A DNA stretch of 64,000 bases from Haloplanus natans DSM 17983 (GTDB lineage Archaea; Halobacteriota; Halobacteria; Halobacteriales; Haloferacaceae). The notes below the pieces were generated by a model that had not been told where the DNA came from, did not search any database, and was given only the letters and a program-made list of their open reading frames with translations. Location of the stretch: the NCBI RefSeq assembly GCF_000427685.1, contig NZ_ATYM01000003.1, positions 310,001 to 374,000 of the forward strand, in the 5' to 3' direction. Both the position numbers and the translations under genes were made by a program. Positions 41,584 to 56,444 of this stretch are shown piece by piece (the stretch's first letter is position 1; each line of letters opens with the position of its first letter).

Positions 41584-41796
41584 CTACAACCAAGGCGCTG
41601 ACGAGGGATCAATATCCTCTTCGTCGGGGACGGGCCGCTCGTGGAGTTCGAGCGCGTCGGCTAGATTCGCAAGCGCCTCCGGGTGTGTTTCGCCTTGGCT
41701 CGTGATACCCGTCTCTTCATCCCGAGCGACGTACCACCCATCCTCAATGGTGAGCGTCACGTTGTCGACATCATCAGGGTTACGGGTCCAAGTCAT
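41584..41796 (-). CDS. HicB-like protein without HicA partner
   Basis: 70 residues from the ATG at 41796 (MTWTRNPDDVDNVTLTIEDG). WYVARDEETGITSQGETHPE followed by ALANLADALELHE is the partial RNase-H-like fold of HicB antitoxins. No HicA-type toxin is encoded on either side. It is the last gene of a four-gene run on the minus strand and overlaps the preceding gene by 17 bp. It may have been recruited as a regulator of this operon. Confidence 0.65.
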   Translation of the reverse strand: MTWTRNPDDVDNVTLTIEDGWYVARDEETGITSQGETHPEALANLADALELHERPVPDEEDIDPSSAPWL

Positions 41797-42082
41797 AGTT
41801 GCATGTCTCCGAAAGTGAGCTGCGTCCTTGCTCTGAGAGGCGATATCGGTGGGGACTATTGCTTGCTTCAAACACTCTCATTAGATAGCCTTGATCGTAT
41901 AGATGCCACAATCGCCACCCAAGTCTCGCATCGGGATTGACTCCGTTGAAGTCCTCATTTGTGAATTTCTCGTTGACATCTTGGTACATGATACCCTCAA
42001 TATCGCACTCAAACGGCTCCTTTTCAGTCTGTCCTCTCGCGACAGCTTTCAGTATCCGTCGATCTATGTTGTCCAAGTTCAT
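41780..42082 (-). CDS. small winged-helix-like protein
   Basis: 100 residues. NLDNIDRRILKAVARGQTEK is a typical first helix pair; ARLGWRLWHLYDQGYLMRVF then SPHRYRLSEQGRSSL fit the recognition helix and wing of an archaeal winged-helix domain (the YRLSEQG ending is common). It overlaps the upstream gene by 4 bp and the downstream HicB-like gene by 17 bp, so translation is probably coupled. Confidence 0.6.
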   Translation of the reverse strand: MNLDNIDRRILKAVARGQTEKEPFECDIEGIMYQDVNEKFTNEDFNGVNPDARLGWRLWHLYDQGYLMRVFEASNSPHRYRLSEQGRSSLSETCNYDLDP

Positions 42083-42507
42083 GGTTGATTTCTCTGTTGG
42101 GAGGTGTACGACGACTCATGTCGAAGGATCCACTGAGCGTTAGCATCGACCGTAATCTGATCGTCAGTCTCAACGACAGAACGAATCTGAGGGCAGTTGA
42201 TGATGGCTGGGATCTCCAACTGTCGTGCATACGTCGGTCCACGACCCGTTAGTCGCTCTTCATCATAGACGACAAATCCGTCGGCATCATCGACTAATCC
42301 ACACATAGCTGGCAGTAGATCTGGCATTACGACAATATCGCCCGTCTCGACATCTTCGACACCGCTGAAATGATTAATCCGGAGTTGCTCTCCTTGGGGT
42401 CGGTCAACCTCAATGCATCGTGCGGACCCCGTTGCCCGGCCGGGACTACCAGCTTCCCCCAAAACGATAGAGGCCCCAGTGTGGTGTATCCCTTTGAGTG
42501 TCACCAC
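42079..42507 (-). CDS. stand-alone PEP-utilizer mobile-domain-like protein
   Basis: 142 residues resembling the phosphohistidine swivelling domain of PEP synthase/PPDK-type enzymes, alone. Evidence: GSARCIEV, VETGDIVVMPDLLPAMCGLV, then ADGFVVYDEERLTGRGPTYA, RQLEIPAIINCPQ and QITVDANAQWILR follow the family order G-D-I-V-v/t-p, v-t-d, A-R-x-x-x-I-P, v-D. The catalytic histidine (normally T-S-H before A-x-x-A-R-E) is absent; GRGPTYAR stands there. So it cannot carry phosphate in the usual way. It overlaps the upstream gene by 7 bp and the next by 4 bp. Function unknown. Confidence 0.65.
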   Translation of the reverse strand: MVTLKGIHHTGASIVLGEAGSPGRATGSARCIEVDRPQGEQLRINHFSGVEDVETGDIVVMPDLLPAMCGLVDDADGFVVYDEERLTGRGPTYARQLEIPAIINCPQIRSVVETDDQITVDANAQWILRHESSYTSQQRNQP

Positions 42508-42851
42508 TGGTACTCTACCTCCTCAACGTCCTCTTCATCAAGGTATATAATCTCCTCTGCCGTTGGGAACAGCCGTTGGGGCGCAGTCAGGTTTCCTGTA
42601 TCAGATGCAGGGATAGCGACTCGTACCGTGACAAGATCGCCGTTAGCTGTGATATCTCGAACATCGTACCGGACGTGCCGTTGGTTGAGGTCCGCCCGGA
42701 GCATCGCTCGCGCAGCTTCCTCAGGGTCTTGAGATGGAGACCCGTTCCAGCGATAGCTCACGCGATAACCGTAGATAGTCGAAAACGAGGGTGGCGTTAG
42801 TTCATCCGGATCTACGGGATGGCATGTCTTCAGCCGTGCTCCCGAAAGCAA
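42501..42851 (-). CDS. hypothetical protein, first gene of compact operon
   Basis: 116 residues with no family I recognise. TIYGYRVSYRWNGSPSQDPE, RADLNQRHVRYDVRDITANG then DLVTVRVAIPASD suggest an alpha-beta fold with paired strands; the C-terminus is acidic (DEEDVEEVEYQW). Its end overlaps the start of the swivelling-domain gene by 7 bp. The gene begins 17 bp before the 3' end of the truncated TnpB fragment, so the operon promoter may lie in or beyond that fragment. Confidence 0.55.
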   Translation of the reverse strand: MLSGARLKTCHPVDPDELTPPSFSTIYGYRVSYRWNGSPSQDPEEAARAMLRADLNQRHVRYDVRDITANGDLVTVRVAIPASDTGNLTAPQRLFPTAEEIIYLDEEDVEEVEYQW

Positions 42852-42867
42852 TGGATGAGGACCGTCA

Positions 42868-43158
42868 TTATTGAGTAGTGCGATGTGGACTTGTCGAGTG
42901 TTCTTTTCGACGCTCGAAGAACGACCGCCACGCCTCGTCGTTCACGCGCCGTACCGTCTGGACCGTCGCGGCACCGAGGCCGCTCTTATACCGGTCCCCA
43001 CAGTCCGACCCCTCCCAGACGGGATCACCCGCGAAGAGCCGTTGGCGGCGGTCGTACGTCAACTCGTTCCAGAAGCTCGCTGACGCATCCAGCAACCGTC
43101 GGAGACACTCCTCGTCGTCGAGGTCTGGTGCGATCACGAACGTATTCGTGCGTCTCAC
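42868..43158 (-). pseudogene. TnpB gene fragment (5' end only)
   Basis: About 90 residues (RTNTFVIAPDLDDEECLRRL, SASFWNELTYDRRQRLFAGD, RRVNDEAWRSFFERR) match the N-terminus of the TnpB encoded at 53345-54571 (RTNEFVVMPETDQDRELLYR, ASLWNQLTFARRQQFFDGED). The whole RuvC part is missing and the frame ends after a short unrelated tail. Like the full copy, it is preceded by a small zinc-finger gene on the same strand. Confidence 0.8.
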
Positions 43159-43259
43159 GATTCAGTCACCTGCACCCTCTTGGATTCGATAAATCGGCGG
43201 AACGTCCCTCCGAACGGCGTGTTCACCCCCGTCCCCCGATGTAGAGGCCACTGGTTGGC

Positions 43260-43457
43260 TCATTCTGAGTCACAGTCGTGATAGACGATACGCTCGGGAA
43301 GCCCGACTCGGCCACAGACGGGACACTCGACCAACGGGGTCGGTGGCAGATTCTCCCACTCGCAGAGTGCGGCCCGGATGTGCTCTCGAACGTCGGGTGA
43401 ATCTGCCCGGGTAAGCGCCTGTGCGAGGTGCATTCGGAGCCGTTCACGGGCCGTCAT
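43260..43457 (-). CDS. small zinc-finger protein upstream of TnpB fragment
   Basis: 65 residues: a helical part (TARERLRMHLAQALTRADSP, then DVREHIRAALCEWENLPPTP) and a C-terminal zinc finger ECPVCGRVGLPERIVYHDC (C-x2-C with a later His and Cys). Paralogue of 54678-54914, which shares RERL-x-MHLAQA-x-TRA-x-SPDVR and CGRVGLPERI. The helical part may bind a partner; function unknown. The stop of the gene lies about 100 bp before the TnpB fragment, the same spacing as in the second copy. Confidence 0.65.
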   Translation of the reverse strand: MTARERLRMHLAQALTRADSPDVREHIRAALCEWENLPPTPLVECPVCGRVGLPERIVYHDCDSE

Positions 43458-43881
43458 TCACCCTCCGGACGGCCGTGCTAAGCCGTGATCTGTACGCTTC
43501 TGGAAATCGATGGCCCCGTATCGACACTAGATCGGCCTGCTGTGGGACGTCTCGGTACATCGCAGGGCGGTCTGAAGCGACATCGTATTTAAGTGTAGAG
43601 TCGGATGCGCCGACTACTGACCAGCATTCATCGCTAAGCATCCGAGAGTCGTCGACGGCGACTTCGAGCCCGAACGTCGGAGCGAGCAGGGCGATTGCCA
43701 GCTGGCAGGCGCGGTCGTCATCGGCATCCGGTCCCCAGTCGAATCCGCCCGGCGAGACCGGGTGGACGAACAGGTGTTTATCGAGGATATCGTCGCCGGC
43801 GTAGACGAGACAGCCGCCGACGGTTCGCTCGCCGCGATACCTCCGGGCACGATGCGTGGATCGTCGATAGTTGGTTGACAT
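43444..43881 (-). CDS. DUF6166 family protein
   Basis: 145 residues from the ATG at 43881 (MSTNYRRSTHRARRYRGERT). YRGERTVGGCLVYAG, PGGFDWGPDADDDRACQLAI and ALLAPTFGLEVAVDDSRML match the DUF6166 pattern (R-G-E-R-T, G-F-x-W-G, Q-L-A-x-A-L-L), a family common on haloarchaeal plasmids and of unknown role. The C-terminal third is variable. It overlaps the zinc-finger gene downstream by 14 bp and lies 52 bp after the PCNA fragment. Confidence 0.7.
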   Translation of the reverse strand: MSTNYRRSTHRARRYRGERTVGGCLVYAGDDILDKHLFVHPVSPGGFDWGPDADDDRACQLAIALLAPTFGLEVAVDDSRMLSDECWSVVGASDSTLKYDVASDRPAMYRDVPQQADLVSIRGHRFPEAYRSRLSTAVRRVNDGP

Positions 43882-43933
43882 CGTTGTGGGTGTGGTGTCG
43901 ATCGGGTACGGGCCCCGTCTTGGTTCGAGGCAG

Positions 43934-44092
43934 TCAGGTCTCAATCCGCGGCGCGAGCATCCGGGTGATGGCACCATCGCCGTCGGCGAGTTCGTAGGAG
44001 AGGATCAGTGGGAAGTCCTCGCCGAGGTCGAGCGTTACTGGCGTCCCCGCCGGGATCGTCCGGACGAGCTTCTTACAGTAGTCCAGAGTAAA
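43934..44092 (-). pseudogene. C-terminal fragment of a PCNA (sliding clamp) gene
   Basis: 53 codons in frame to a TGA at 43934-43936: FTLDYCKKLVRTIPAGTPVT, LDLGEDFPLILSYELADGDG, AITRMLAPRIET. This is the usual end of haloarchaeal PCNA (Y-x-K-x-x-x-x-x-I-P, D-x-G-x-x-FP, M-x-APRI). Just upstream the frame meets a TAG (44093-44095), where the TnpB element at 44168-45418 begins, so insertion and deletion have removed the first three quarters. No other PCNA piece is seen in the window. Confidence 0.75.
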
Positions 44093-44167
44093 CTACCTCA
44101 CCCTACTCCCTCGGCGCTCCGCGCCTCGGTTCGTTGAGGGTGGGGCTTTGATGTGGACTCCCGGCAA

Positions 44168-45418
44168 TCAGTCGCCAGCAATAGGCTGGTGACTCTCGCC
44201 GCTCAACGTCCCACCATTCAAACGCACGTCTACTCGTGCGTCTCCACTCCCCGACGTAGGCGAGGAACGGAGTCTATGAATCTGCTTTCGAGCGTACCGC
44301 ACACCGATGTTCTTCGCAGCATTGTAGTCCGCGTTCACTTCGTACCCGCACTTCTGGCACTCGAAGTGTTCTCCGTCGCGGTTGTCTTCGTGCGTGAACC
44401 CACAATTCATTCGAGAACAGCGTTGACTCGTGTAGTTCGGCTCAACCTGCTCCACGAAGACACCCTGCTCAGGCGCTTTGTACTCGACGTACTCGAACAA
44501 GCGCCGAAACGCCCAGATGTGGTGCCACGTCGCGTGCGGAAGCCGCTCTCGAATATCGGTCAAGTCCTCGAACACGATTACGTCGCAGCCGTAGTCGATG
44601 GCCTCCGAGACAAGCTCGTTAGCGACGGTGTGGATGTACTGTTTCCGCCATGCTGCTTCACGCTTACCGAGTCGAAGCAAGGCGTTGTGCCCGGCTTGAG
44701 TGGCGCGCTTTTGCATCTCACCACGTCGCTTCTTGAATTCACGACACCAGTGGTCATAGTCGTCTCCTTTCCAGAACGTTCCCGTAGAGGAGACGGCCAA
44801 CGAATTGACGCCAAGGTCGATACCGAGGACTGTTTGGTCTGAGTGCCCGGTATCTGTCGAAGCCTCTGCGTCTTCGTCGTTTACTCGCCGAGTCGAAACG
44901 TGGAGGTAGAACTCGTCGGTGGTCGCGTCGTACCGAAGCGTGCTCTCACGGAACTCGTAGTCCTCAGAAAGGACGTACCGCTCGTAAGGCGTCGGACTGT
45001 CTGCCGGGAGGATGAACGAGGGTTCGACTCGGCCTTCGACGGTTGCGAGCGACACGTTGGTACGGTAGAAGGTCGCGCTTCGCGCATCGTAGTCCATCGT
45101 CTCAGCGGTGAACGTCGGACAGGAGACGCGCTGTTTCTTCTTCCAGCGCTCGACAACGCTTTTGACGGCTTCAACGGCGCGACGAATCGCGGCTTGGACG
45201 AGTTGTGCTGGTAATTCTGTCTCCGCTCGGAGTTCGGCGTAGAGTGCGTCCCGCACTTCTCGCTTGTTGGTTTTGCACTCGGTGTAGGACGTGTTGGACC
45301 AGCAATATTCGCTAGTTCGGTTCGCGCAGTACAGGAATTGGTCGCTGGTTCGGTGGAGTGCGTCGCGTGGCTCGTCGGAAATAATGAGTTTTACGACGGC
45401 TGTTCGACGCACGTCCAT
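44168..45418 (-). CDS. tnpB: TnpB (IS1341-type), copy A
   Basis: 416-residue RNA-guided endonuclease TnpB of the IS200/IS605-IS1341 group. RuvC motifs: Asp in LGIDLGVNSLAVS, Glu in VIVFEDLTDIRERL, Asp in VNADYNAAKNIGVR. A zinc ribbon lies between the last two (CSRMNCGFTHED, FECQKCGYE). All catalytic residues are present. Hairpins that probably mark the ends lie on either side (ccccgacct/aggtcgggg at 45500-45542; a CACCCTAC.../GTGGGGC stem at about 44100-44150). No TnpA is nearby. It interrupts the PCNA gene. Confidence 0.9.
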   Translation of the reverse strand: MDVRRTAVVKLIISDEPRDALHRTSDQFLYCANRTSEYCWSNTSYTECKTNKREVRDALYAELRAETELPAQLVQAAIRRAVEAVKSVVERWKKKQRVSCPTFTAETMDYDARSATFYRTNVSLATVEGRVEPSFILPADSPTPYERYVLSEDYEFRESTLRYDATTDEFYLHVSTRRVNDEDAEASTDTGHSDQTVLGIDLGVNSLAVSSTGTFWKGDDYDHWCREFKKRRGEMQKRATQAGHNALLRLGKREAAWRKQYIHTVANELVSEAIDYGCDVIVFEDLTDIRERLPHATWHHIWAFRRLFEYVEYKAPEQGVFVEQVEPNYTSQRCSRMNCGFTHEDNRDGEHFECQKCGYEVNADYNAAKNIGVRYARKQIHRLRSSPTSGSGDARVDVRLNGGTLSGESHQPIAGD

Positions 45419-45708
45419 AGTTCAGAGAGGGGGCGACGGTACTTGCAGGTTCGGGAGTCGGTCGGCCGGTGTACGTGGGTTGTGTCGTGTCAGGTTCCTC
45501 CCCGACCTACTCACTCGCTTCGCTCGTCCGTGGAGGTCGGGGCTCCACCTCGCATTTGCTGAATCAGTGCTCATAGCAGGTGTGGGGACCAGCCGAACGA
45601 GTCCTGACTGACCGAGTTCAGGCGTTCGTTCGATGATCCCTCGCTCATTTGCATTCGCTAAATAGCAATCTCGAAGCTCTCCGCGACCGCGCCACCGCCA
45701 CCCAGGAC
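45419..45708. other. left end of TnpB element A and scar
   Basis: Contains the 45500-45542 stem (9-bp arms) and tttgctgaatcagtgctcat (45554-45573). The latter shares atcagtgctcatag with 34703-34716. No gene is supported here. Confidence 0.35.
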
Positions 45709-45951
45709 TCACTCTCGACGGACGGGCGGGAGCCAGTCGCAGTTCGGACAGAACGCCTCGTACACCCCCAGTATCTCTTCGAGTTCCCAGCTCCCGCTGT
45801 CGCGGAACAGGACGCCGGCACGGACGATCGTGTGAACGTTTCCGTGACCGCACGCCGGGCAGGGCGCTCCCGGTCTCCAGCCGGCCCGCTCGAGATCGAT
45901 AACCTGTTCGGAGCCACCAGCTGTGTCTTCCGCACCCGCTGATGGAGTCAC
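45709..45951 (-). CDS. zinc-ribbon protein coupled to TFIIB
   Basis: 80 residues starting with the GTG at 45951, which overlaps the TFIIB stop as GTGA, a classic coupling arrangement. After an Ala/Gly-rich lead (TPSAGAEDTAGGSEQ), it holds one zinc ribbon: APCPACGHGNVHTIVRA and EAFCPNCDWLPPVRRE, two C-x2-C pairs about 40 residues apart. Basic residues at the end. Being read from the same message as TFIIB, it could be an accessory factor for that TFIIB; this is inference. Confidence 0.65.
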   Translation of the reverse strand: MTPSAGAEDTAGGSEQVIDLERAGWRPGAPCPACGHGNVHTIVRAGVLFRDSGSWELEEILGVYEAFCPNCDWLPPVRRE

Positions 45952-46922
45952 GCGTTCCCCCGCCGAGGCTGGTCGTCTCCACCGTTGAGGATGGTCTGGA
46001 GTTCGTTCCACCGCGCACGAACCGTCATCGGGGTGACCTCGGCAGCGTCGGCGAGCGCTGCTTGGGTGACCCGTTCGTCCTGTTCTCGGGCTGCCTGATA
46101 CACACAGCCAGCCGCGACACCCGCGGGATTGTATCCGTTCGCGACACCGGTGCGCACTGCCTGTTTCGCGAGCGCCGCTGCTCGCTGGCGGGTCCCCGTC
46201 GAGAGGTCGAGTGCTGAGGTGACTCTCGGGACGTACTCGAGAGGCTCCATCGGTACCGTCGGAAGTTCGAGCTCCCGGTTGAGCACGCTGTATGCGTTCT
46301 GAACGCGCTCGTGGGAGACTGCCGAGGTCACGCTGACTTCCTGGAGCGTTCGGGGCAGCCCGGCACACCGACACGCGGCGTAGACGCTGGCGGCAGCCAT
46401 CGCCTCGATCGACCGGCCACGGATGAGGTCCTCGCCGGCAGCAGTTCGGTAGAGGCGACAGGCCTGGTCGCGGAGGCTCCGTGGGAGATCGAGTGCGCCG
46501 ACGATCCGTCGAACCTCTGCGAGGCCATGGGCGAGGTTCTGCTCGGCCTTACTTGACCAGCGGCCGCGCCGATGCTCGCGCCGAAGACGGCCGATCTGAC
46601 TCCGCTTTCGGCCCGACAGCGTCGTACCGTTGGCGTCGGTCTGGTCGAAGCCAATCTCGCTCGACAGCCCCCGGTCGTGGCGGGTCGGGGTCAGCGCCGG
46701 ACCGGTCCGCGCGCGTTCGATGCGCTCTGTGTCGTCGAAGGCACACCACTCCGGGCCATGGTCGATTGGACGATCCTCAAGGACGAGCCCGCAGTCGTCA
46801 CAGACGGTCTCGATGCTGTTCGTGTGGACGAGACCGCCGCACTCGGGACAGCCGCTGCTGGACCGCTCGGCGGCGGGGACGTCCTCGTCGAATGTCCGCT
46901 CGTAGACGTTTCTCAGTGACAT
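45948..46922 (-). CDS. tfb: transcription initiation factor IIB (TFB)
   Basis: 324-residue archaeal TFIIB, which bridges TBP-bound promoters and RNA polymerase. The N-terminal zinc ribbon GCPECGGLVHTNSIETVCDD (C-x2-C then C-x2-C) is followed by the B-reader region (DHGPEWCAFDD, RDRGLSSEIG-like TRHDRGLSSEIGFDQTD) and two cyclin repeats (ALDLPRSLRDQACRLYRTAA, GRSIEAMAAASVYAACRCAG; later LVALAKQAV-like ALAKQAVRTGVANGYNPAG). Haloarchaea carry several TFBs; one in an accessory plasmid-like region may drive its own gene set. Coupled by GTGA overlap to the zinc-ribbon gene. Confidence 0.93.
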   Translation of the reverse strand: MSLRNVYERTFDEDVPAAERSSSGCPECGGLVHTNSIETVCDDCGLVLEDRPIDHGPEWCAFDDTERIERARTGPALTPTRHDRGLSSEIGFDQTDANGTTLSGRKRSQIGRLRREHRRGRWSSKAEQNLAHGLAEVRRIVGALDLPRSLRDQACRLYRTAAGEDLIRGRSIEAMAAASVYAACRCAGLPRTLQEVSVTSAVSHERVQNAYSVLNRELELPTVPMEPLEYVPRVTSALDLSTGTRQRAAALAKQAVRTGVANGYNPAGVAAGCVYQAAREQDERVTQAALADAAEVTPMTVRARWNELQTILNGGDDQPRRGNA

Positions 46923-47064
46923 GGTTTAGACAGGGACCGACACTGTCGGTTGACTCCCCGCATCCCGTTGCAGGTGATAAATCAGCTCGCCGCTGGATCG
47001 TACCGGGTCCGCGATGACCTCGGTACGGAACCCTCACGCCACTCTCAGCTTCGTTGCGTATCGA

Positions 47065-47301
47065 TTACTCGTCGGGGTCCGTCCGGTGACCGTCGCGAGC
47101 TTCGAAGAATGCGATCGGGTCGTTGTCGCCGCGCCGGGCCATCTCGTTGGCTGTCTCGAGTTGGGAGTCGATCAGCGTGTTTTGCTGGCGCGACCACTCC
47201 TCGTCGTCGTGAGTGCGGACATACTCGGCCCAGCGCTTGATGAACGCCCGCCGCTCCTCGGCGTTCTGCCGCTGAGATCGTTCGAACTCGTCAGAGCTCA
47301 G
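47065..47301 (-). CDS. small plasmid-type hypothetical protein
   Basis: 78 residues, read from a CTG at 47301 because a TAA (47308-47310 region) closes the frame upstream and no ATG or GTG precedes the conserved part: SSDEFERSQRQNAEERRAFI, KRWAEYVRTHDDEEWSRQQN, TLIDSQLETANEMARRGDND, PIAFFEARD. It is helical and resembles small proteins seen on haloarchaeal plasmids; I know no function. The lack of a normal start may mean an inactivated start codon or a non-standard one. It lies 142 bp upstream of TFIIB on the same strand. Confidence 0.5.
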   Translation of the reverse strand: MSSDEFERSQRQNAEERRAFIKRWAEYVRTHDDEEWSRQQNTLIDSQLETANEMARRGDNDPIAFFEARDGHRTDPDE

Positions 47302-47435
47302 TCGTGACCACCCAGTTTACCGACTGGTGGAGGGCAACTCACTTAATCCGATGCGCCGAATATACGAGCAGCGACCGACTGATCGCGGCAAGACCTGGCC
47401 GTGAACGCGCGAGAACACAGAGGACAGGATCTGAT

Positions 47436-47753
47436 ATGAGCATGGATACCGGCGACCCGACGGCGACCGACATTAGCCTCACGTACGACGATGAGGCCGA
47501 CCAGTGGCGCGCTCGCGACGAAACCCGCGGCGTCACCGTCCGGGCCAACACCCGGGAGGCAGCGCTCGACGCGCTCGACGAGGCCGTCGCGGACGATGGT
47601 GAGACCGATCCCGATGTCGAGGTCGACGCCGACGACCCGTTCTTTACAGCATCGACGTTTTCGAGTGGTCGGTCAGATGTCTCGCGGAACGTCGACGAGT
47701 ACCTCGCTGAGGACACCTATCGGGACAAACTCGGCTCTGACGAGGGCTCCTGA
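47436..47753 (+). CDS. HicB-like antitoxin of a PIN toxin
   Basis: 105 residues from the ATG at 47436 (MSMDTGDPTATDISLTYDDE). ADQWRARDETRGVTVRANTR then EAALDALDEAVADD is the partial RNase-H fold of HicB-type antitoxins. The C-terminal tail (DVSRNVDEYLAEDTYRDKLG) is the kind of helix that sits on a PIN toxin. It ends 6 bp before the ATG of the PIN gene on the same strand, so the two form a toxin-antitoxin pair of mixed type. Upstream codons open to 47304 are unlikely to be coding. Confidence 0.7.
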   Translation: MSMDTGDPTATDISLTYDDEADQWRARDETRGVTVRANTREAALDALDEAVADDGETDPDVEVDADDPFFTASTFSSGRSDVSRNVDEYLAEDTYRDKLGSDEGS

Positions 47754-47759
47754 GTGGCG

Positions 47760-48212
47760 ATGAGTGGAATCGAGCCGACGCCACTGTTCGTCGATACCGG
47801 GCCGTTCTACGCCCGCTTCGACCGGGACGATGGTCTCCACGACCGAGCGGTCGAACTCTTCGAGCGGATTCGGACTGCCGACTTGCTCTACCGACCAGTG
47901 TACACGTCCCGGTATGTCCTCGCTGAGACGACACGGTTGCTGGTCCAGCGCGTGAGCCACGAGGCAGCGAGCACGGCCCTGTCTGCGATCCGCAACGGAG
48001 AGTTGTTCACTATCCTGACCGTCGACGAGGACCGTTTTGAGGCTGCCTGCGAGCGGTTCGGACAGTACGACGACCAGACGATCACGCTCGTCGATCACCT
48101 GAGTGGCGTGCTGGCTGAGGCACACGACGCGACGCATATTCTCACGTTCGACCCCGATGACTTCCAGACGCTCGGCCTCACAGCCGTTCCTGACGATACA
48201 GGCGACGGGTAA
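47760..48212 (+). CDS. PIN-domain (VapC-like) toxin
   Basis: 150 residues from the ATG at 47760. PIN RNase signature: Asp in TPLFVDTGPFYARFD (residue about 12), Glu in VYTSRYVLAETTRLL (about 56), Asp in QTITLVDHLSGVLAEA and the last acidic cluster in HILTFDPDDFQTLGL. Full length for VapC-like ribonucleases, which cleave tRNA or rRNA in known cases. The partner is the HicB-like protein encoded 6 bp upstream. The dyad at 48288-48333 follows the stop. Confidence 0.82.
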   Translation: MSGIEPTPLFVDTGPFYARFDRDDGLHDRAVELFERIRTADLLYRPVYTSRYVLAETTRLLVQRVSHEAASTALSAIRNGELFTILTVDEDRFEAACERFGQYDDQTITLVDHLSGVLAEAHDATHILTFDPDDFQTLGLTAVPDDTGDG

Positions 48213-48287
48213 GTATACGGGCTCAAAATCGAGTCCTCGACAATCGCTCGAACACCCGATACGATTGTCACTGTGACCCCGCTGAAA

Positions 48288-48333
48288 ATAGTTACCCCAC
48301 ACGAGCCACAGCTGCTCACTGTGGGGTAACTAT
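48288..48333. promoter_or_regulatory. dyad ATAGTTACCCCACA / TGTGGGGTAACTAT
   Basis: Perfect 14-bp arms with an 18-base loop; the core matches the dyad at 41169-41211. An ATG at 48343 lies 9 bp downstream and opens a short frame (MTSAMNMNDSTNSGDFC) that is cut by the TnpB element, so the dyad may once have controlled a gene now lost. Confidence 0.6.
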
Positions 48334-48391
48334 ACGATCCTCATGACATCAGCGATGAATATGAATGATAGCACCAACTCCGGTGACTTCT

Positions 48392-48426
48392 GCCCCGTAC
48401 CTACCGATCATCGGTCCGTACGGGGC
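48392..48426. terminator. stem at 3' end of TnpB copy B
   Basis: GCCCCGTAC / GTACGGGGC, perfect 9-bp arms overlapping the 3' end of the TnpB gene. By position it fits the right-end hairpin of an IS1341-type element, part of the guide RNA region. Confidence 0.5.
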
Positions 48427-49609
48427 TTCCTGTTTCGACGACGCGCTTTGCAGGAACGAGAGTTTCCACAGGGAGCGCAGTCTCCGCAGGCGTTGATTCG
48501 GGACAGCCCATCCCTATTCGGGTGAGAGCGCGGTTCAGTATGTTCCGTGCCGCGTTCGCGTCCCGATCGGTTTCGAATCCACAGGCTGGACACGCGTGCT
48601 CACGCACCCAGAGGGGCTTGTCGGTCTTTACCCCACACTTCGAGCACTCCGTGGTGGTATCCACCGGGGATACCTCGATGAAGTGTGTTCCCTCCCGCTC
48701 GCACTTTTGTTCGAGCATTCGCAGGAAGGTCCCCCACGCCGCGTCCGTTCGGGCGCGACTGGTGGAGGGCAACTCGATGAGACTTCTCGTGTCCAGATCC
48801 TCAACCGCCACGAGGTCGTACTCCCGAGCGTAATAGGCCGACAACTTGTGGAGGAAATCGCGGCGCTTTCGCTTCAGGTCGGCCTGTCGGCGAGCCATCG
48901 TCGTTCGCTGGGACTCCCAGTTGTTCGACCCGTATTCCTTGCGAGACAGCCTGTGGTGTGCGTGACGCAGTCGCGCTCGCTCGTCGGAGAGATCGAGTGA
49001 TTCCACGGCTCGACCATCGGTGTCGTGGACGTACTTGAGGATCCCCACGTCGATTCCGACCACCCGAACCGGGCGCTCGGGCTTCGACGGTGGATTATGG
49101 GGGGTCTCGATACTGAGGCACGCGTACCAGTTCCCGGTCGGTTCGCGCTTAACCGTGATTTCCTTGATTTCGGTGCTTTCGGGGAGATCTCGGTGGAGGA
49201 CAATGGGAACGTTACCGATCTTCGAGAGCCACAGTCTTGACCGACCACTCGTGTTCTTGAGTTTGAAGCCGGACTGGCTGTACGTGAATGACCGGTAGTC
49301 CCGCGGACTCCTCCATTTGAGCCGGCCAACGCGGTGGCCGTTCTGCTTGAGGCCGTTCAGCCGCGAGAGATTGTGATACAACCGTTGAACGACCCGCTGT
49401 AGCACCTTTGAGTGAACTTTCTTCCACTCGGGCCAACACGCTTTCAGGGCCGGCAGGTGAGTGATTTCCGAGTACGCCGAGGTATTACTGGTTCGGTTGA
49501 GCCGGTGGAGAAAGTGGTTGTACACCTGCCGGCAGGTATCGAGCGTCCAGGCCAATCGCTTCGCGACATCGTCGGACGGGTTTAATCGATACCTGTAGTT
49601 GTATTTCAT
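48401..49609 (-). CDS. tnpB: TnpB (IS1341-type), copy B
   Basis: 402 residues; a different subfamily from copy A. The N-terminus (YNYRYRLNPSDDVAKRLAWT, LDTCRQVYNHFLHRL) is a helical recognition lobe. RuvC motifs: Asp in VVGIDVGILKYVHD, Glu in LVAVEDLDTRSLI, Asp in DRDANAARNILNR; zinc ribbon CSKCGVKTDK and ACPACGFETD. All catalytic residues are present and the frame is intact. No TnpA. Downstream is the 48392-48426 stem. Confidence 0.9.
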   Translation of the reverse strand: MKYNYRYRLNPSDDVAKRLAWTLDTCRQVYNHFLHRLNRTSNTSAYSEITHLPALKACWPEWKKVHSKVLQRVVQRLYHNLSRLNGLKQNGHRVGRLKWRSPRDYRSFTYSQSGFKLKNTSGRSRLWLSKIGNVPIVLHRDLPESTEIKEITVKREPTGNWYACLSIETPHNPPSKPERPVRVVGIDVGILKYVHDTDGRAVESLDLSDERARLRHAHHRLSRKEYGSNNWESQRTTMARRQADLKRKRRDFLHKLSAYYAREYDLVAVEDLDTRSLIELPSTSRARTDAAWGTFLRMLEQKCEREGTHFIEVSPVDTTTECSKCGVKTDKPLWVREHACPACGFETDRDANAARNILNRALTRIGMGCPESTPAETALPVETLVPAKRVVETGSPVRTDDR

Positions 49610-49745
49610 CGGGTCCCACCAGCTGCGACTGGCTCACTCATCTGCACACCTCTGATGAGTGATAAAGTTCTGTACCCCTGCTCACGGAGTGACCTGTCTC
49701 GGCACGGTTTTCGCTCAGCGGATGTGGGGATGGTGTGGGAGATAG

Positions 49746-49854
49746 CTCGAAATCTGTCGAGTAGAGGCCTGTATCGACGATACACCTAAGCGTCGCTGGT
49801 CAGTGTAGAATGTGAGGCTGGATAGAGCCTCACGAACGGAATTGGTAGAATTCC
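49746..49854. promoter_or_regulatory. cluster of four inverted repeats before the OB-fold gene
   Basis: In 109 bp: CTCGA-N6-TCGAG (49746-49761), GTATCGaCGATAC (49771-49783), GTGAGGCT-N6-AGCCTCAC (49812-49833), GGAATT-N5-AATTCC (49838-49854). The last ends one base before the ATG at 49856. They could be operators, a folded leader, or part of a replication origin. Confidence 0.5.
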
Positions 49855-49855
49855 A

Positions 49856-51622
49856 ATGAACAGTAGCAACCAACCTGATAAGAAGTTATCGGGAACTCAA
49901 AACGAGACGACAGAACCGAACACGACAGATGCGACCGCTCTCACGCGGCCGACCGACACGCCATCCCCAGCCTTCCGGGCCGACCGGGAGCACAGCGAGC
50001 GTGCCGACTCCGTTGACGACCGCTCCGCATTGGTGCGGGCACTCTCGGGATTGCTGCACGCGCTCGTCCAAGACGACACCGAGTCGTCGACGAGCACCGC
50101 GACCGACGGGACGGCACCCGATTCGACGGGATACACCGAACGGACCGCCTCGAAAGGCGAGTACGGCTCCCGGACGGAACCCGTCGACGGCGTCTACGGT
50201 CACACAGCCGACGGCGACCCGGTGGTTGCCCCGACTGGGCGACTCGCCGCGAGCCGCATCGACGCCAACTGGACGCCCGGCGACACGCTCTACAACCCTG
50301 ACAGGGCTGGAGATATCGCCGCAGCGACTGGCACGAACGCCAGCTTCCTGTTCGCCGAACAGTCCGGTGAGCAATGCGCAACGTTCGCGATTGAGTACGA
50401 CCACACGGCGGGCCCGACGCTCGTCGACCCGAGTGGTGAGCGCATGATTGGCGTTGCGAGTGGCCTCGAGCCGACGATGCCCCGAACGGCATCCGCGACG
50501 ACGCAGGGGCCTGCCCGGAGCCGACTCGCCTCGGTGCTGCCCGCTCGCGCTCGGTCACTGGACAGAGACAGCGGTATCGATCACGAGCTGCTGGAGACGT
50601 TGCCGGCCGCCGAACAGGCACGCCTGCGCCGACTCCGCGCACTCGACATCCCGACTGACCCGACGCCCGAAGATGCGACCGAGGGAGTCCCGACGGCCGA
50701 GTTGGAGGTGCAGACGCCCGATGGGCGACTCACGCCACTCGGTGAGCTGTTCGCAGAGCCCGAGCAGTTCGCGCGGAGTTCACTCGAATCGATCGAGTAT
50801 TCCCTTGCCGTCGCCGCCGAGAGACGCCGCGTCACTGACGGAATCCTGACTGCCCGGACCGATCCGGAAATGGAAGCAGGTGACGTCGAACTCGTGGGAC
50901 ACGCGAAGTGGCTGGCCAATCGGTACGACGAGTACGCGGCAGCCAGGCCAGCCAGCGCCGAACTCGCAGCCACGCGAGCAACGCGCCAAGCCGAGCGCTA
51001 TCGCACGCGGGTTCGACCGCTCACCGAACTCACCGCCGAGCAGCACGACCAGGTCTCCCGAATGGTAGACCGACTGCTGAGCGACGAGTTCGACCGAGTA
51101 GTCGAGATACGCAAATCACGGTTGACGCTGGCGATCGCGCTTGCGAACCGCCTCCGTGATGGCGCCGAGCCGACCCAGGCGCTGCTCCGCCAGGCCGATG
51201 CCGAAGCAACCGACCCACGGAACGTCCTGACGGTCGGCAACGTCCGGTACACGCCAGTCGACGCAACCCGTGGGCGATTCTCGACCCAGGGGACGATCCT
51301 CCGATTGTTCGAGAACACCCATCCTGCGATCAAGCAGGCTGGTCTGCTTCAGGACCACACTGGCGTGATGAAGTTTGCAATCTGGCGAAAGAGCGAGTGG
51401 GATGAAACCCGGCCAACGCCCGACCCAACCGATGACGGACGGACGTTGATCAAAGCTCACCGCCACCCAGAGCTGCACGAAGGCGATGTCGTTCGATGTG
51501 AGGATGTGATCAAACGCTGGTACAACGGTGATCCGACGTTCGAGACCCGTCGAGACAGTACCCTGACGATCATCGAGCGAGTGAGCGATGCTTCGAACGA
51601 GCGTAGAAGTGGTGTTCGGTGA
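49856..51622 (+). CDS. OB-fold (RPA-like) plasmid protein
   Basis: 588 residues. The first 270 are acidic and low-complexity with a conserved-looking patch (YGHTADGDPVVAPTGRLAAS, GDTLYNPDRAGDIAAATGTN). Helical middle (about 290-450: SRMVDRLLSDEFDRVVEIRK). C-terminal OB-fold (about 470-575): LTVGNVRYTPVDATRGRFST, HTGVMKFAIWRKSEWDETRP and HEGDVVRCEDVIKRWYNGDP, as in single-strand-binding RPA proteins. Plasmid and provirus relatives probably act in replication. The 3' end is present as a second, partial copy at 54964-55083. Four inverted repeats lie directly upstream; a hairpin terminator follows. Confidence 0.7.
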   Translation: MNSSNQPDKKLSGTQNETTEPNTTDATALTRPTDTPSPAFRADREHSERADSVDDRSALVRALSGLLHALVQDDTESSTSTATDGTAPDSTGYTERTASKGEYGSRTEPVDGVYGHTADGDPVVAPTGRLAASRIDANWTPGDTLYNPDRAGDIAAATGTNASFLFAEQSGEQCATFAIEYDHTAGPTLVDPSGERMIGVASGLEPTMPRTASATTQGPARSRLASVLPARARSLDRDSGIDHELLETLPAAEQARLRRLRALDIPTDPTPEDATEGVPTAELEVQTPDGRLTPLGELFAEPEQFARSSLESIEYSLAVAAERRRVTDGILTARTDPEMEAGDVELVGHAKWLANRYDEYAAARPASAELAATRATRQAERYRTRVRPLTELTAEQHDQVSRMVDRLLSDEFDRVVEIRKSRLTLAIALANRLRDGAEPTQALLRQADAEATDPRNVLTVGNVRYTPVDATRGRFSTQGTILRLFENTHPAIKQAGLLQDHTGVMKFAIWRKSEWDETRPTPDPTDDGRTLIKAHRHPELHEGDVVRCEDVIKRWYNGDPTFETRRDSTLTIIERVSDASNERRSGVR

Positions 51623-52019
51623 GGTGATGATGACAGAGTTGAAGATCCGTAGCGAACCGTAGTACAGCGAGTCCGTCAGGACTCAGAACTCTAATTTCTT
51701 TTCGAATCAGGTCCGAGGGCGGTCTAAGACACCATAGCTCTTAGCACATTCACAGAAAGAATAAGAAATAGACACTTAATTCGATCATCTTGATGAAATG
51801 AAGTTTGCGATCTTTGACTCCCACTGCGTTAGAGAGATGCAGATCCCAACGATGAGACGGCCCCACGCCGGCGACTTACGGAAGTGCGAGGAGAAAGCCC
51901 CGTGCTTTAGCGCGGGGATGAATCCGACAACCCCGACACCAACCACCGTTCGATGGCACGGCAGGATATTCCACGCTCCAATCCACGCCTTCAAGTAACT
52001 ATACCTACATAGGTTATGT
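51623..52019. other. terminator region and left end of TnpB element C
   Basis: Besides the terminator, it contains the stem CCCC-gtgctttagcgc-GGGG (51899-51918), typical of IS200/IS605-type ends. A short frame at 51798-51998 shows no family resemblance and I do not call it a gene. Confidence 0.45.
51669..51703 (+). terminator. hairpin-T terminator after the OB-fold gene
   Basis: GAGTCC-GTCA-GGACTC (51669-51684) followed by the T-rich aatttcttttc. The same arrangement is preserved at 56525-56563 in the duplicated segment. Confidence 0.6.
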
Positions 52020-53294
52020 ATGGCGGAACAGGTCGTCACTCGCACCTACACTGCTTCCATCCGGAACCAGCCACAGGTACAAGACGACCTCGACGCCCTC
52101 GGGTTCTCAGCGTCAAAACTCTGGAACGTCGGACGGTGGGTCTGTGACCGAGTGTGGTCTGAGATCGGCCACATGCCCGGACACAACGAACTCACCTCGT
52201 ACCTCAAGTCGCACGAACGCTACGATGACCTGCATTCTCAGTCAAGTCAGCGAGTCCTTCAAGAACTCGCTGAGGCGTTCAACGGCTGGTACGGCAAACG
52301 ACGCAACAGAGATACACGAGCGAACCCGCCGAAGTACCGCAAACACGGCGACGACCACCCACGAAGTACGGTGACGTTCAAAGCCGCTGGCTTCAAACTC
52401 GACACCGAGTACGAGAGAGTCCGACTCTCAAAAGGCTCGAACCTCAAAGACAACCGGTCGGACTTCATCCTCTGCGAGTACCAGACTCGGCCCGACGTTG
52501 ACCTCTCCACCGTGGAGAGCGTCCAGCAGGCGCGGGCAGTTTGGACGGGAAGCGAGTGGGAACTGCACTTCGTGTGCAAAGTCGAAATCGAAGTGTCAGA
52601 GGCACCCGGTCAGAAGACGGTTGGTGTTGATCTCGGCATCAACAACTTCGCTGCCCTCGCCTACGAAGACGGCCACGGTGAGCTGTACCCGCTGAACTGT
52701 CTGAAGCAAGACGACTACTTCTTCAGCAAGCGGATTGCTCGCTGTGACAACTCCGATTCCGAGCAAGCCACGCGGTTAAATCAGAAGAAGTCTCGACGGC
52801 GCACCCACTACTTCCACACGCTCTCCAAGCACATCGTCCAGCGATGTGTTGAGGAGGGTGTTGGAACGATTGTGGTTGGCGACCTCTCTGGCATCCGTGA
52901 TGAGGAAGAGAACGGCGAGTCGAAGAACTGGGGCAAGCATGGCAATCTTGACCTGCACTCGTGGGCGTTCGACCGCTTCACCGACCTGCTCGAATACAAG
53001 GCCGAGATGGAAAGAATCGCGGTCAATGACGTGTCTGAGTGCGATACATCGAAGTCGTGTTGGTGTTGTGGTCAGAAGCGAAAGGCGAACCGTGTTGAGC
53101 GCGGGTTGTACGTCTGTGACGAGTGTGGGACGGTGGCGAACGCAGATGTGAACGGTGCTGAGAACATTCGACAGAAAGTATCTCCGAGTCTTCGTTCAGA
53201 GGATAGGAGTAACGGCTGGTTGGCACAGCCATCGACGTTTCTGTTTGACAAGGAAACTGGTGCGTTCGCACCTCAAGAACAGGTCACGTCGTAA
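52020..53294 (+). CDS. TnpB family protein, copy C (variant RuvC-II)
   Basis: 424 residues. N-terminal helical lobe (LDALGFSASKLWNVGRWVCD, NELTSYLKSHERYDDLHSQS). RuvC: Asp in TVGVDLGINNFAAL, the second position reads TIVVGDLSGIRDEE (Gly-Asp where Glu-Asp is usual), and Asp in VANADVNGAENIRQ. Zinc ribbon CWCCGQKRKANR and YVCDECGTV. Either the neighbouring Asp acts in place of Glu or the enzyme is weakened. End stems are at 51899-51918 and 53320-53339 (cctcgccc-ttca-gggcgggg). No TnpA nearby. Confidence 0.85.
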   Translation: MAEQVVTRTYTASIRNQPQVQDDLDALGFSASKLWNVGRWVCDRVWSEIGHMPGHNELTSYLKSHERYDDLHSQSSQRVLQELAEAFNGWYGKRRNRDTRANPPKYRKHGDDHPRSTVTFKAAGFKLDTEYERVRLSKGSNLKDNRSDFILCEYQTRPDVDLSTVESVQQARAVWTGSEWELHFVCKVEIEVSEAPGQKTVGVDLGINNFAALAYEDGHGELYPLNCLKQDDYFFSKRIARCDNSDSEQATRLNQKKSRRRTHYFHTLSKHIVQRCVEEGVGTIVVGDLSGIRDEEENGESKNWGKHGNLDLHSWAFDRFTDLLEYKAEMERIAVNDVSECDTSKSCWCCGQKRKANRVERGLYVCDECGTVANADVNGAENIRQKVSPSLRSEDRSNGWLAQPSTFLFDKETGAFAPQEQVTS

Positions 53295-53319
53295 ACCACA
53301 ATATCCCAACGCGGGAATC

Positions 53320-53339
53320 CTCGCCCTTCAGGGCGGGGA
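53320..53339. terminator. right-end stem of TnpB element C
   Basis: cctcgccc-ttca-gggcgggg, a strong stem 25 bp after the TnpB stop. It fits the 3' guide-RNA hairpin and element end. It abuts the 3' end of TnpB copy D, so element C may have inserted right next to that gene. Confidence 0.5.
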
Positions 53340-53344
53340 GGATG

Positions 53345-54571
53345 TCAAGCCGTGGCGTCTGTGGTTGAACGCCAGCGATGATTGTCCCACTGGAACCGCA
53401 CGGGCCGGGCCATCGGCCGTGGTAGCTTCCCTATTTCTCGACTCAGTAGCGTCCGAGCGGCGGTCAGGTCTGCGTGACCCTCATACCCACACCGACACCT
53501 GAGACGGTCGCGGTCACGGGTCGTCCCCTCGACTGTTCCACAGTCCGGACACTCCTGTGAGGAGTCGAACTCCTGGACGGTCACCAACTCGATTCCGTGT
53601 TCGTCACACAGGTGCCCGAGACGGTCGGTAAAGCGACGATTCGCCCAGAACTCCGTGAGCTTTCGATTTGTACTCTTCCACGGTGTTCGGCGAACAACCC
53701 CAGTAAGATCACCGACATAGATCGTTTGGATCCCGTCGTCGATGACTCGCTCGACGAGATCTCGAAGGAGAGCGTCGACACAGTGGTCACGACGGCTACT
53801 CCGCCGGCGATAGAGCCGATTGATCCGTTTGCTGGTGTGCTCGCCTTCGGGGAGCTTCGATTGTGCTTGGGCGATCGCGTTGGAGGTTGCCTCGAACTGC
53901 TCCCACGGCCGGGTTCCGTCATACAGGAACTGAACGCCTTTGGTCGTTGCACAGGCGACGAGATTGACCGCCCCGACATCTAGCGCGGCTGCCTCGCCAC
54001 CGTTCGAGCTACGTTCCAGCTTGGGATCGACGGTCACGGACTGGTAGGCTCGGAACCCGTTTGTCAGGTCGTCGTAGACGATCTGGAGCTCGCCCTGTGT
54101 TCCCTTCCACTTCGGGTTGCCGTGGATGGGGACACGTGGGCGCTCGTTAGGGGTCAGGCCGTACTCAGGTTTGATCTCTCTCCCGACGGTGAACTCGATT
54201 CGGGAGTACTGACCCCACTGGAGCGAATACGCTCGATTTCGGAGAAAGAGTCGGAGGTCCCGACCGTCCTCTTCGTTTCCCCAGTAACCGGGGGGTTGAG
54301 CGGACGAATCACGTCCGCGCCTGGAAAAGAATGCACGCCATGCTCGGTCGTTGACACGAGCCATCGTTTCTGCCGTTGCCGACCCGAGTAGCCCTTTGTA
54401 CTCGTCGTAGAATCGATCTGCTGCCCAGATATCCTCGCCGTCGAAGAACTGCTGTCGGCGGGCGAACGTAAGTTGATTCCAGAGGCTTGCAGCCCCGTCC
54501 AGCAGCCGATACAGGAGTTCTCGATCTTGATCGGTCTCCGGCATGACAACGAACTCGTTGGTTCGGATCAT
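53345..54571 (-). CDS. TnpB family protein, copy D (variant RuvC-II)
   Basis: 408 residues from the ATG at 54571 (MIRTNEFVVMPETDQDRELL); codons up to 54622 are open but unlike relatives. RuvC: Asp in AAALDVGAVNLVA, the second position TIYVGDLTGVVRRT has Gly-Asp instead of Glu-Asp, last Asp in EGHADLTAARTLL. Zinc ribbon ECPDCGTVEGTT and LRCRCGYEG. It has the same RuvC-II variant as copy C, but its N-terminal lobe is of another type. A zinc-finger gene lies 106 bp upstream. A truncated paralogue is at 42868-43158. Confidence 0.85.
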   Translation of the reverse strand: MIRTNEFVVMPETDQDRELLYRLLDGAASLWNQLTFARRQQFFDGEDIWAADRFYDEYKGLLGSATAETMARVNDRAWRAFFSRRGRDSSAQPPGYWGNEEDGRDLRLFLRNRAYSLQWGQYSRIEFTVGREIKPEYGLTPNERPRVPIHGNPKWKGTQGELQIVYDDLTNGFRAYQSVTVDPKLERSSNGGEAAALDVGAVNLVACATTKGVQFLYDGTRPWEQFEATSNAIAQAQSKLPEGEHTSKRINRLYRRRSSRRDHCVDALLRDLVERVIDDGIQTIYVGDLTGVVRRTPWKSTNRKLTEFWANRRFTDRLGHLCDEHGIELVTVQEFDSSQECPDCGTVEGTTRDRDRLRCRCGYEGHADLTAARTLLSREIGKLPRPMARPVRFQWDNHRWRSTTDATA

Positions 54572-54677
54572 CGGCACCGTCGTTTCCACCTGTCTTGGTA
54601 TTTCAATTCGAACATCCCGCACTCTCTTGAGAGTGATAAAATCGGGCTGTAGCGGAACTCGTAGGGCCGGTCACAGA

Positions 54678-54914
54678 TTAGCCTTCATCACGAGTTTCTG
54701 AACAGTAGTGTTCGTGGATCCGTTCAGGAAGCCCGACGCGACCACAGAGGGGACACTCAAACAGTGGCGTCGGCGGGAGCTGGCGACACTCCACCAGTGC
54801 TGCTTCTAGATGACGCCGAACGTCGGGGGACTGGGCACGGGTGATCGCCTGTGCGAGGTGCATTTCGAGGCGTTCGCGGGTCGTCGGTCCGTCGGGGGGT
54901 GGCTGATCGGACAT
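54678..54914 (-). CDS. small zinc-finger protein upstream of TnpB copy D
   Basis: 78 residues from the ATG at 54914 (MSDQPPPDGPTTRERLEMHL). A helical part (RERLEMHLAQAITRAQSPDV, RRHLEAALVECRQLPPTP) is followed by a zinc finger ECPLCGRVGLPERIHEHYC. It is a paralogue of 43260-43457. Both sit about 100 bp upstream of the same TnpB subtype in the same orientation. Either the two genes duplicated together or they belong to one unit. Function unknown. Confidence 0.65.
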   Translation of the reverse strand: MSDQPPPDGPTTRERLEMHLAQAITRAQSPDVRRHLEAALVECRQLPPTPLFECPLCGRVGLPERIHEHYCSETRDEG

Positions 54915-54963
54915 AGACTGCACCCTATTGGGTCTGATAAACTGCTATTGAGTCTCGGGACAG

Positions 54964-55083
54964 GATGTCATGAAGCGATGGTACGACGGCAACCCGACGT
55001 TCGAGACACGCCGAGACAGTACGCTCACGATTATTGAGCGACCGACCGGTGGCCAGAGCAATCGTATGGACGGTGTTCGGTGA
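54964..55083 (+). pseudogene. 3' fragment of a second OB-fold (RPA-like) gene
   Basis: In frame to TGA at 55081-55083: DVMKRWYDGNPTFETRRDST then LTIIERPTGGQSNRMDGVR. It matches the last 38 residues of the 49856-51622 product (DVIKRWYNGDPTFETRRDST, LTIIERVSDASNERRSGVR) with several changes, so it is an old duplicate. Its downstream terminator copy is at 56525-56563, split off by TnpB element E. Confidence 0.8.
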
Positions 55084-55088
55084 TGGTG

Positions 55089-56342
<1,254 letters not shown>

Positions 56343-56444
56343 CTGTAATCTCACGTACGACTCGTTGTCTTATAAACTTCACAACTGGCGTTGGAGAGTC
56401 GGGGGCCTTCGCTCATGGGTGGTGGAGTGGGTTGTCTGATTCCT

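Follow-up and report, generated by a model that had tools for sequence, protein, structure and literature searches.

A histidine-less swivel domain in a rearranged fragment of a rare Haloplanus operon

The four overlapping genes (g1–g4) that a sequence-only reading had taken for a compact operon are a patchwork and, we conclude with high confidence, constitute neither a single conserved unit nor a new four-gene system. They lie within the window (the whole stretch of 64,000 nucleotides analyzed here), which is part of a 429-kb contig, a large replicon, of a Haloplanus genome. The reading that we favor, and consider reasonably probable, is that the locus is a rearranged patch of a rare operon, in which the product of g2 would be a pseudo-swivel serving as a binding or regulatory module together with g1 and g3. 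The features concerned are the following:

42501..42851, minus strand: g1, TTG start, 116 aa; a truncated ORF
42079..42507, minus strand: g2, GTG start, 142 aa; a stand-alone PEP-utilizer swivel domain, apparently intact
41780..42082, minus strand: g3, ATG start, 100 aa; a putative winged-helix protein
41584..41796, minus strand: g4, ATG start, 70 aa; a solitary, full-length DUF7387 (HicB-like) protein
41821..42892, minus strand: block homologous to Haloplanus G318, whose intact operon it matches at 82% DNA identity; its ends are rearrangement junctions
42868..43158, minus strand: N-terminal TnpB fragment of ~90 residues, abutting g1 where it is cut

All four minus-strand ORFs were recovered, together with their reported overlaps of 7, 4 and 17 bp; the suggestion that these mark one unit finds support for g1–g3, which belong to one operon in Haloplanus G318, but not for g4, which falls outside the region of homology. 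The G318 operon consists of a 73-aa gene with a weak match to HEAT repeats, a 199-aa version of g1, g2 and g3, which overlap by 8, 7 and 4 bp, and it does not include g4. Because this orthologous operon shares the 7- and 4-bp overlaps, they are no chance product, and the 17-bp overlap between g3 and g4 is there because the end of g3 differs in the rearranged window copy. Homology between the two DNAs is confined to 41821–42892 (82% identity), with the g2 proteins being 85% identical. The dN/dS values of the window relative to G318 (g1 remnant, 0.20; g2, 0.12; g3, 0.29) identify g1, g2 and g3 as real coding genes under purifying selection, a signal that may largely reflect the time preceding truncation and rearrangement. 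Judging from the letters, a TATA-like stretch appears to lie just 5′ of the first gene of the G318 operon. The intact operon was seen in one genome only, and its extent thus rests on that single copy.

Relative to G318, the block at 41821–42892 has no upstream HEAT-like gene, its g1 is short of ~72 N-terminal residues and its g3 no longer has the original end. The g1 homology continues past the TTG start up to 42892, so that ~72 residues are lost at the cut and the first possible start, the TTG at 42851, costs 13 further, leaving a window product that corresponds to residues 86–199 of the 199-aa G318 protein. Beyond the cut, the DNA encodes the N-terminal part, approximately 90 residues, of a TnpB that is 52% identical to the TnpB at 53345–54622, and this fragment meets the g1 remnant within a few bases of 42892; the loss of ~72 residues from g1 follows from the fact that homology stops there against the TnpB fragment. 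In this respect g1 is indeed a piece of a larger gene, as the sequence-only reading had allowed for, albeit one whose family is unnamed. At the other junction, g3 runs on for 13 residues past the end of homology at 41821, and the protein terminates in SSLSETCNYDLDP in the window versus NADLMKSLSQV in G318; the end thus appears rewritten in the window, with the qualification that either genome could carry the original version. Starting at 41786 and going down in coordinates, the sequence matches hicB-like genes of other Haloplanus loci (72–79%) and, because it is also outside the G318 homology, g4 must have reached the junction independently; by this sequence evidence, it is a neighbor of g1–g3 through rearrangement.

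The loss of the 5′ part would be tied to the TnpB-type element that is now truncated alongside it, and any present transcription of the block would start from the TnpB side. In the wider window, five TnpB-like ORFs (44168–45418, 48401–49609, 52020–53294, 53345–54622 and 55089–56354; two of them profile-checked) and the TnpB fragment at 42868–43158 are crowded into a dense cluster of ~14 kb (42868–56354); a separate observation concerns the minus strand at 18243–26915, where a 2890-aa adhesin-like ORF has many VGGLVG-type repeats together with a DDSS linker, and its C-terminal end resembles a membrane anchor.

Such damage raises the main alternative, namely that the whole block is decaying debris which, having lost its promoter region together with the beginning of g1, yields no working products. 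This would agree with a truncated g1 that has only a TTG start, the truncated TnpB adjoining it and the rewritten end of g3, as well as with the g1 match of H. ruber R35, likewise a mere fragment; but g2 is full length and without stops, is 85% identical to its G318 counterpart with a dN/dS of 0.12 and has retained its overlaps with both g1 and g3, and we consider this explanation rather unlikely. According to the favored reading of a rearranged operon patch, g2 and perhaps g3 could still function in the source genome, g1 probably could not, and g4 would be a passenger.

The separate origin of g4 also bears on the possibility of a single functional unit made up of g1–g4, such as a toxin-antitoxin-like system in which the HicB-like protein is the antitoxin for another member. 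The genes are co-oriented and overlapping, and DUF7387 proteins may pair with other toxins, an example being the PIN gene at 47754–48212; however, the intact G318 operon has no g4, g4 is related to ordinary hicB genes, and the 17-bp overlap exists only through the differing end of g3, leaving this idea nearly refuted. As for g4 itself, it matches DUF7387, a HicB-like family, with E=6e-15, and same-length relatives rule out that it is a truncated gene. The label of an orphan HicB is apt insofar as the gene is solitary: no hicA was found near it by tblastn or with the PF07927 profile, the nearest HicA (PF07927) lying ~24 kb away at C1:375285. It misses that g4 has ordinary hicB genes as its kin and that these frequently lie just ahead of hicA, as in three relatives with hicA directly downstream (including C1:375543 of the same genome); the pair of a fourth relative is broken, and three more have no hicA ORF in the flanks examined. 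Thus g4 resembles the DUF7387 antitoxin branch of HicAB systems in being a full-length member with such close relatives, and differs from it in having no adjacent hicA; solitary antitoxin genes are common (PMC2701414). Elsewhere in the window, on the plus strand at 47304–48212, a DUF7387 antitoxin-like gene (47304–47753) is directly followed by the PIN-domain gene (47754–48212), an arrangement suggesting that the partners of DUF7387 may include PIN toxins in addition to HicA. A degraded hicAB was also observed at L038 (G000:C7:2824761), with an in-frame TAG in the hicB match and an apparently frameshifted hicA.

The g2 protein, encoded at full length without stops, matches the PEP-utilizer swivel family PF00391 with 41.2 bits (E=1.2e-10; cut-off 23.1), and proteins P0006 and P0009 likewise score above the PF00391 cut-off. 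An AlphaFold model computed from thirteen sequences (mean pLDDT 80, pTM 0.75) adopts the swivel fold, an outcome favored by the inclusion of canonical swivels in the alignment; a model from only five sequences was unusable (pLDDT 37). Foldseek aligned the former with PDB entries 2e28, 5hv1, 1zym and 1kbl (E≤2e-4), the best matches being Bacillus stearothermophilus pyruvate kinase (2e28), rifampin phosphotransferase and enzyme I. The TSH motif of PEP synthase, PPDK and enzyme I includes the histidine that carries the phosphate (PMC9009071). Profile alignment of g2 with enzyme I structures places Arg89 in the position of this catalytic residue, with LTGRG replacing MTSHA, and the catalytic loop T-D-E-G-G-M-T-S-H of eight canonical haloarchaeal swivels becomes Y-D-E-E-R-L-T-G-R. 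The same column is occupied by R, R, V and A in four Haloplanus homologs: the motif reads TGR in two g2 orthologs, and TGV and TDA in two remoter Haloplanus swivels. The threonine of the TSH motif is retained in all five of these histidine-less proteins. By comparison, GGMTSHAAI, histidine included, is carried by each of the eight PEP-synthase-type swivels sampled. What had been described as a stand-alone phosphohistidine-type domain is therefore a swivel in which arginine replaces the catalytic histidine and, because of this absence, g2 is very probably not a phosphohistidine carrier.

PEP synthases and PEP-synthase-like proteins of ~450 aa were considered as kin of g2 and set aside, as they carry the histidine; they served as contrast only. 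The ~450-aa type, consisting of a swivel and a C-terminal domain without ATP-grasp, is found at L002, L013, L018 and L019 in several Haloplanus genomes and keeps the canonical GGMTSHAAI; its partner is not evident.

Could g2 nonetheless carry phosphate in partnership with a separate kinase or with the PEP synthase of the chromosome, in the manner of two-component dikinases such as HpeHI? Its swivel fold and PF00391 match are compatible with this idea, and split dikinases do exist (PMC12167813), HpeHI being one that requires its histidine (PMC12167813). Yet the catalytic histidine and the Gly-Gly loop are both absent from g2, and the sole PPDK_N (ATP-grasp) domain of the genome is part of a complete chromosomal PEP synthase, which makes this role extremely improbable. 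Having kept the swivel fold and the threonine but neither the histidine nor the Gly-Gly loop, g2 should not relay phosphate in the way of PEP synthase or enzyme I.

Compared with the PF00391 swivels of PEP synthase, PPDK, enzyme I and rifampin phosphotransferase, g2 shares the fold and ~70 aligned residues, among them the threonine of TSH and an R-x-x-x-[IV]-P run after the loop; but theirs is located inside a multidomain enzyme and forms phosphohistidine, whereas g2 is free-standing and has no histidine at that site. Structurally, g2 comes closest (2e28) to the C-terminal PEPut of pyruvate kinase (PykA) in Bacillus, a swivel that serves in regulation and in contacts with proteins (PMC9009071). 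In B. subtilis, PEPut regulates both pyruvate kinase and replication initiation, in a manner dependent on the TSH motif and responsive to mimics of threonine phosphorylation (PMC9009071). PykA keeps TSH and has its PEPut fused to pyruvate kinase; g2, unlike it, lacks the histidine, stands free and shares its operon with a putative winged helix. Also outside any dikinase are the histidine-less swivels of the PEP-utilizing enzyme WP_114604797.1 (Haloplanus rubicundus pCBA1112-01; TGVG) and a 328-aa G294 protein (TDAG), which are about 28–32% identical to g2 and differ from it in their N-terminal parts and neighbors, with no g1 or g3 recognized alongside. In the former plasmid (L007, 5324–8906), the swivel gene overlaps a 244-aa gene and adjoins a restriction-endonuclease gene that matches the PADLOC PDC-S02 and type IV restriction models.

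Profile searches of each product assigned g2 to PF00391 and g4 to DUF7387, and produced no match at threshold for g1 or g3 in either Pfam or NCBIfam. The impression of a gene mix unlike known systems thus survives for g1 and g3, which the family libraries leave unnamed, and fails for g4 with its ordinary hicB kin. Similarly, the description of g3 as a winged helix can be kept only as putative, being based on a sequence pattern and sub-threshold Pfam matches (HTH_AsnC-type, E=0.24; DUF3116, E=0.028), with no significant sequence match among PDB entries. No PADLOC model matched g1–g4 at E≤0.1; the HEAT-like gene of G318 reached E=0.02.

Conservation of the gene order on other haloarchaeal plasmids was looked for in a plasmid collection and not found, and the four-gene order is seen in the window alone. 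Among 12 Haloplanus genomes, g2 occurs in three and g3 in two. Outside the genus, samples of 391 genomes of the class contained no convincing g1 match and no close g2 match, and 293 genomes of the order no g3 match besides the window's own; class-wide matches to full-length g1 beyond Haloplanus (E≥1.7e-4) were left uncounted because they are weak, short and mostly stop-interrupted. Peptide-pattern scans of GTDB and viral contigs with g2, the g2 alignment, P0010 and full-length g1 recovered Haloplanus ruber R35 only, and nothing viral. When g1, full-length g1 and the G318 g3 served as protein queries, the plasmid collection returned nothing, as did a phage collection searched with g2, whose only match in the plasmid collection was H. 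rubicundus. In H. ruber R35, g2 (64–68%) is followed by a piece resembling g1 residues 114–185 and there is no g3, so that the g1-g2-g3 trio is not obligatory. Although the order differs in H. ruber, g1 and g2 occur together in three loci, and this co-location provides the best evidence for what may be a functional link. The H. ruber g2 is flanked by ParA and an integrase-family gene, and in G318 a type I restriction-modification set and an integrase-family gene are found at distances of up to ~9 kb from the operon; these neighborhoods look mobile or defense-like, which is suggestive only.

With regard to function, the intact operon would most likely be regulatory, not metabolic: g2 is probably a binding or scaffold module acting with g1, like the regulatory swivel of Bacillus pyruvate kinase, and the putative winged-helix g3 would bind DNA, controlling the operon or a target gene. 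The specific version of this role, whereby g2, together with g1, would bind a partner or ligand and DNA would be the target of g3, is put forward tentatively. That the G318 operon is a new small regulatory or defense module that travels among Haloplanus genomes on mobile or defense islands, its histidine-stripped swivel turned into a sensor or scaffold, seems improbable; the PADLOC search being negative, a defense role is kept open because of the G318 neighborhood only. A literature search found no described haloarchaeal swivel module.

In summary, unrelated pieces of genes can come to mimic a tight operon when rearrangement takes place next to TnpB-type elements, and the locus is a warning against operon calls from overlaps alone. 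Its g2 represents a known domain in a very restricted variant and belongs to a rare operon of which the window holds a damaged copy. The remaining interest lies in a small set of Haloplanus swivels that all lack the phosphate-carrying histidine, one of them beside a putative winged helix, and thus are the pseudo-enzyme form of a domain central to metabolism; if binding of a metabolite or partner were shown, they would be a further case, besides Bacillus pyruvate kinase, of a swivel used for control instead of catalysis.
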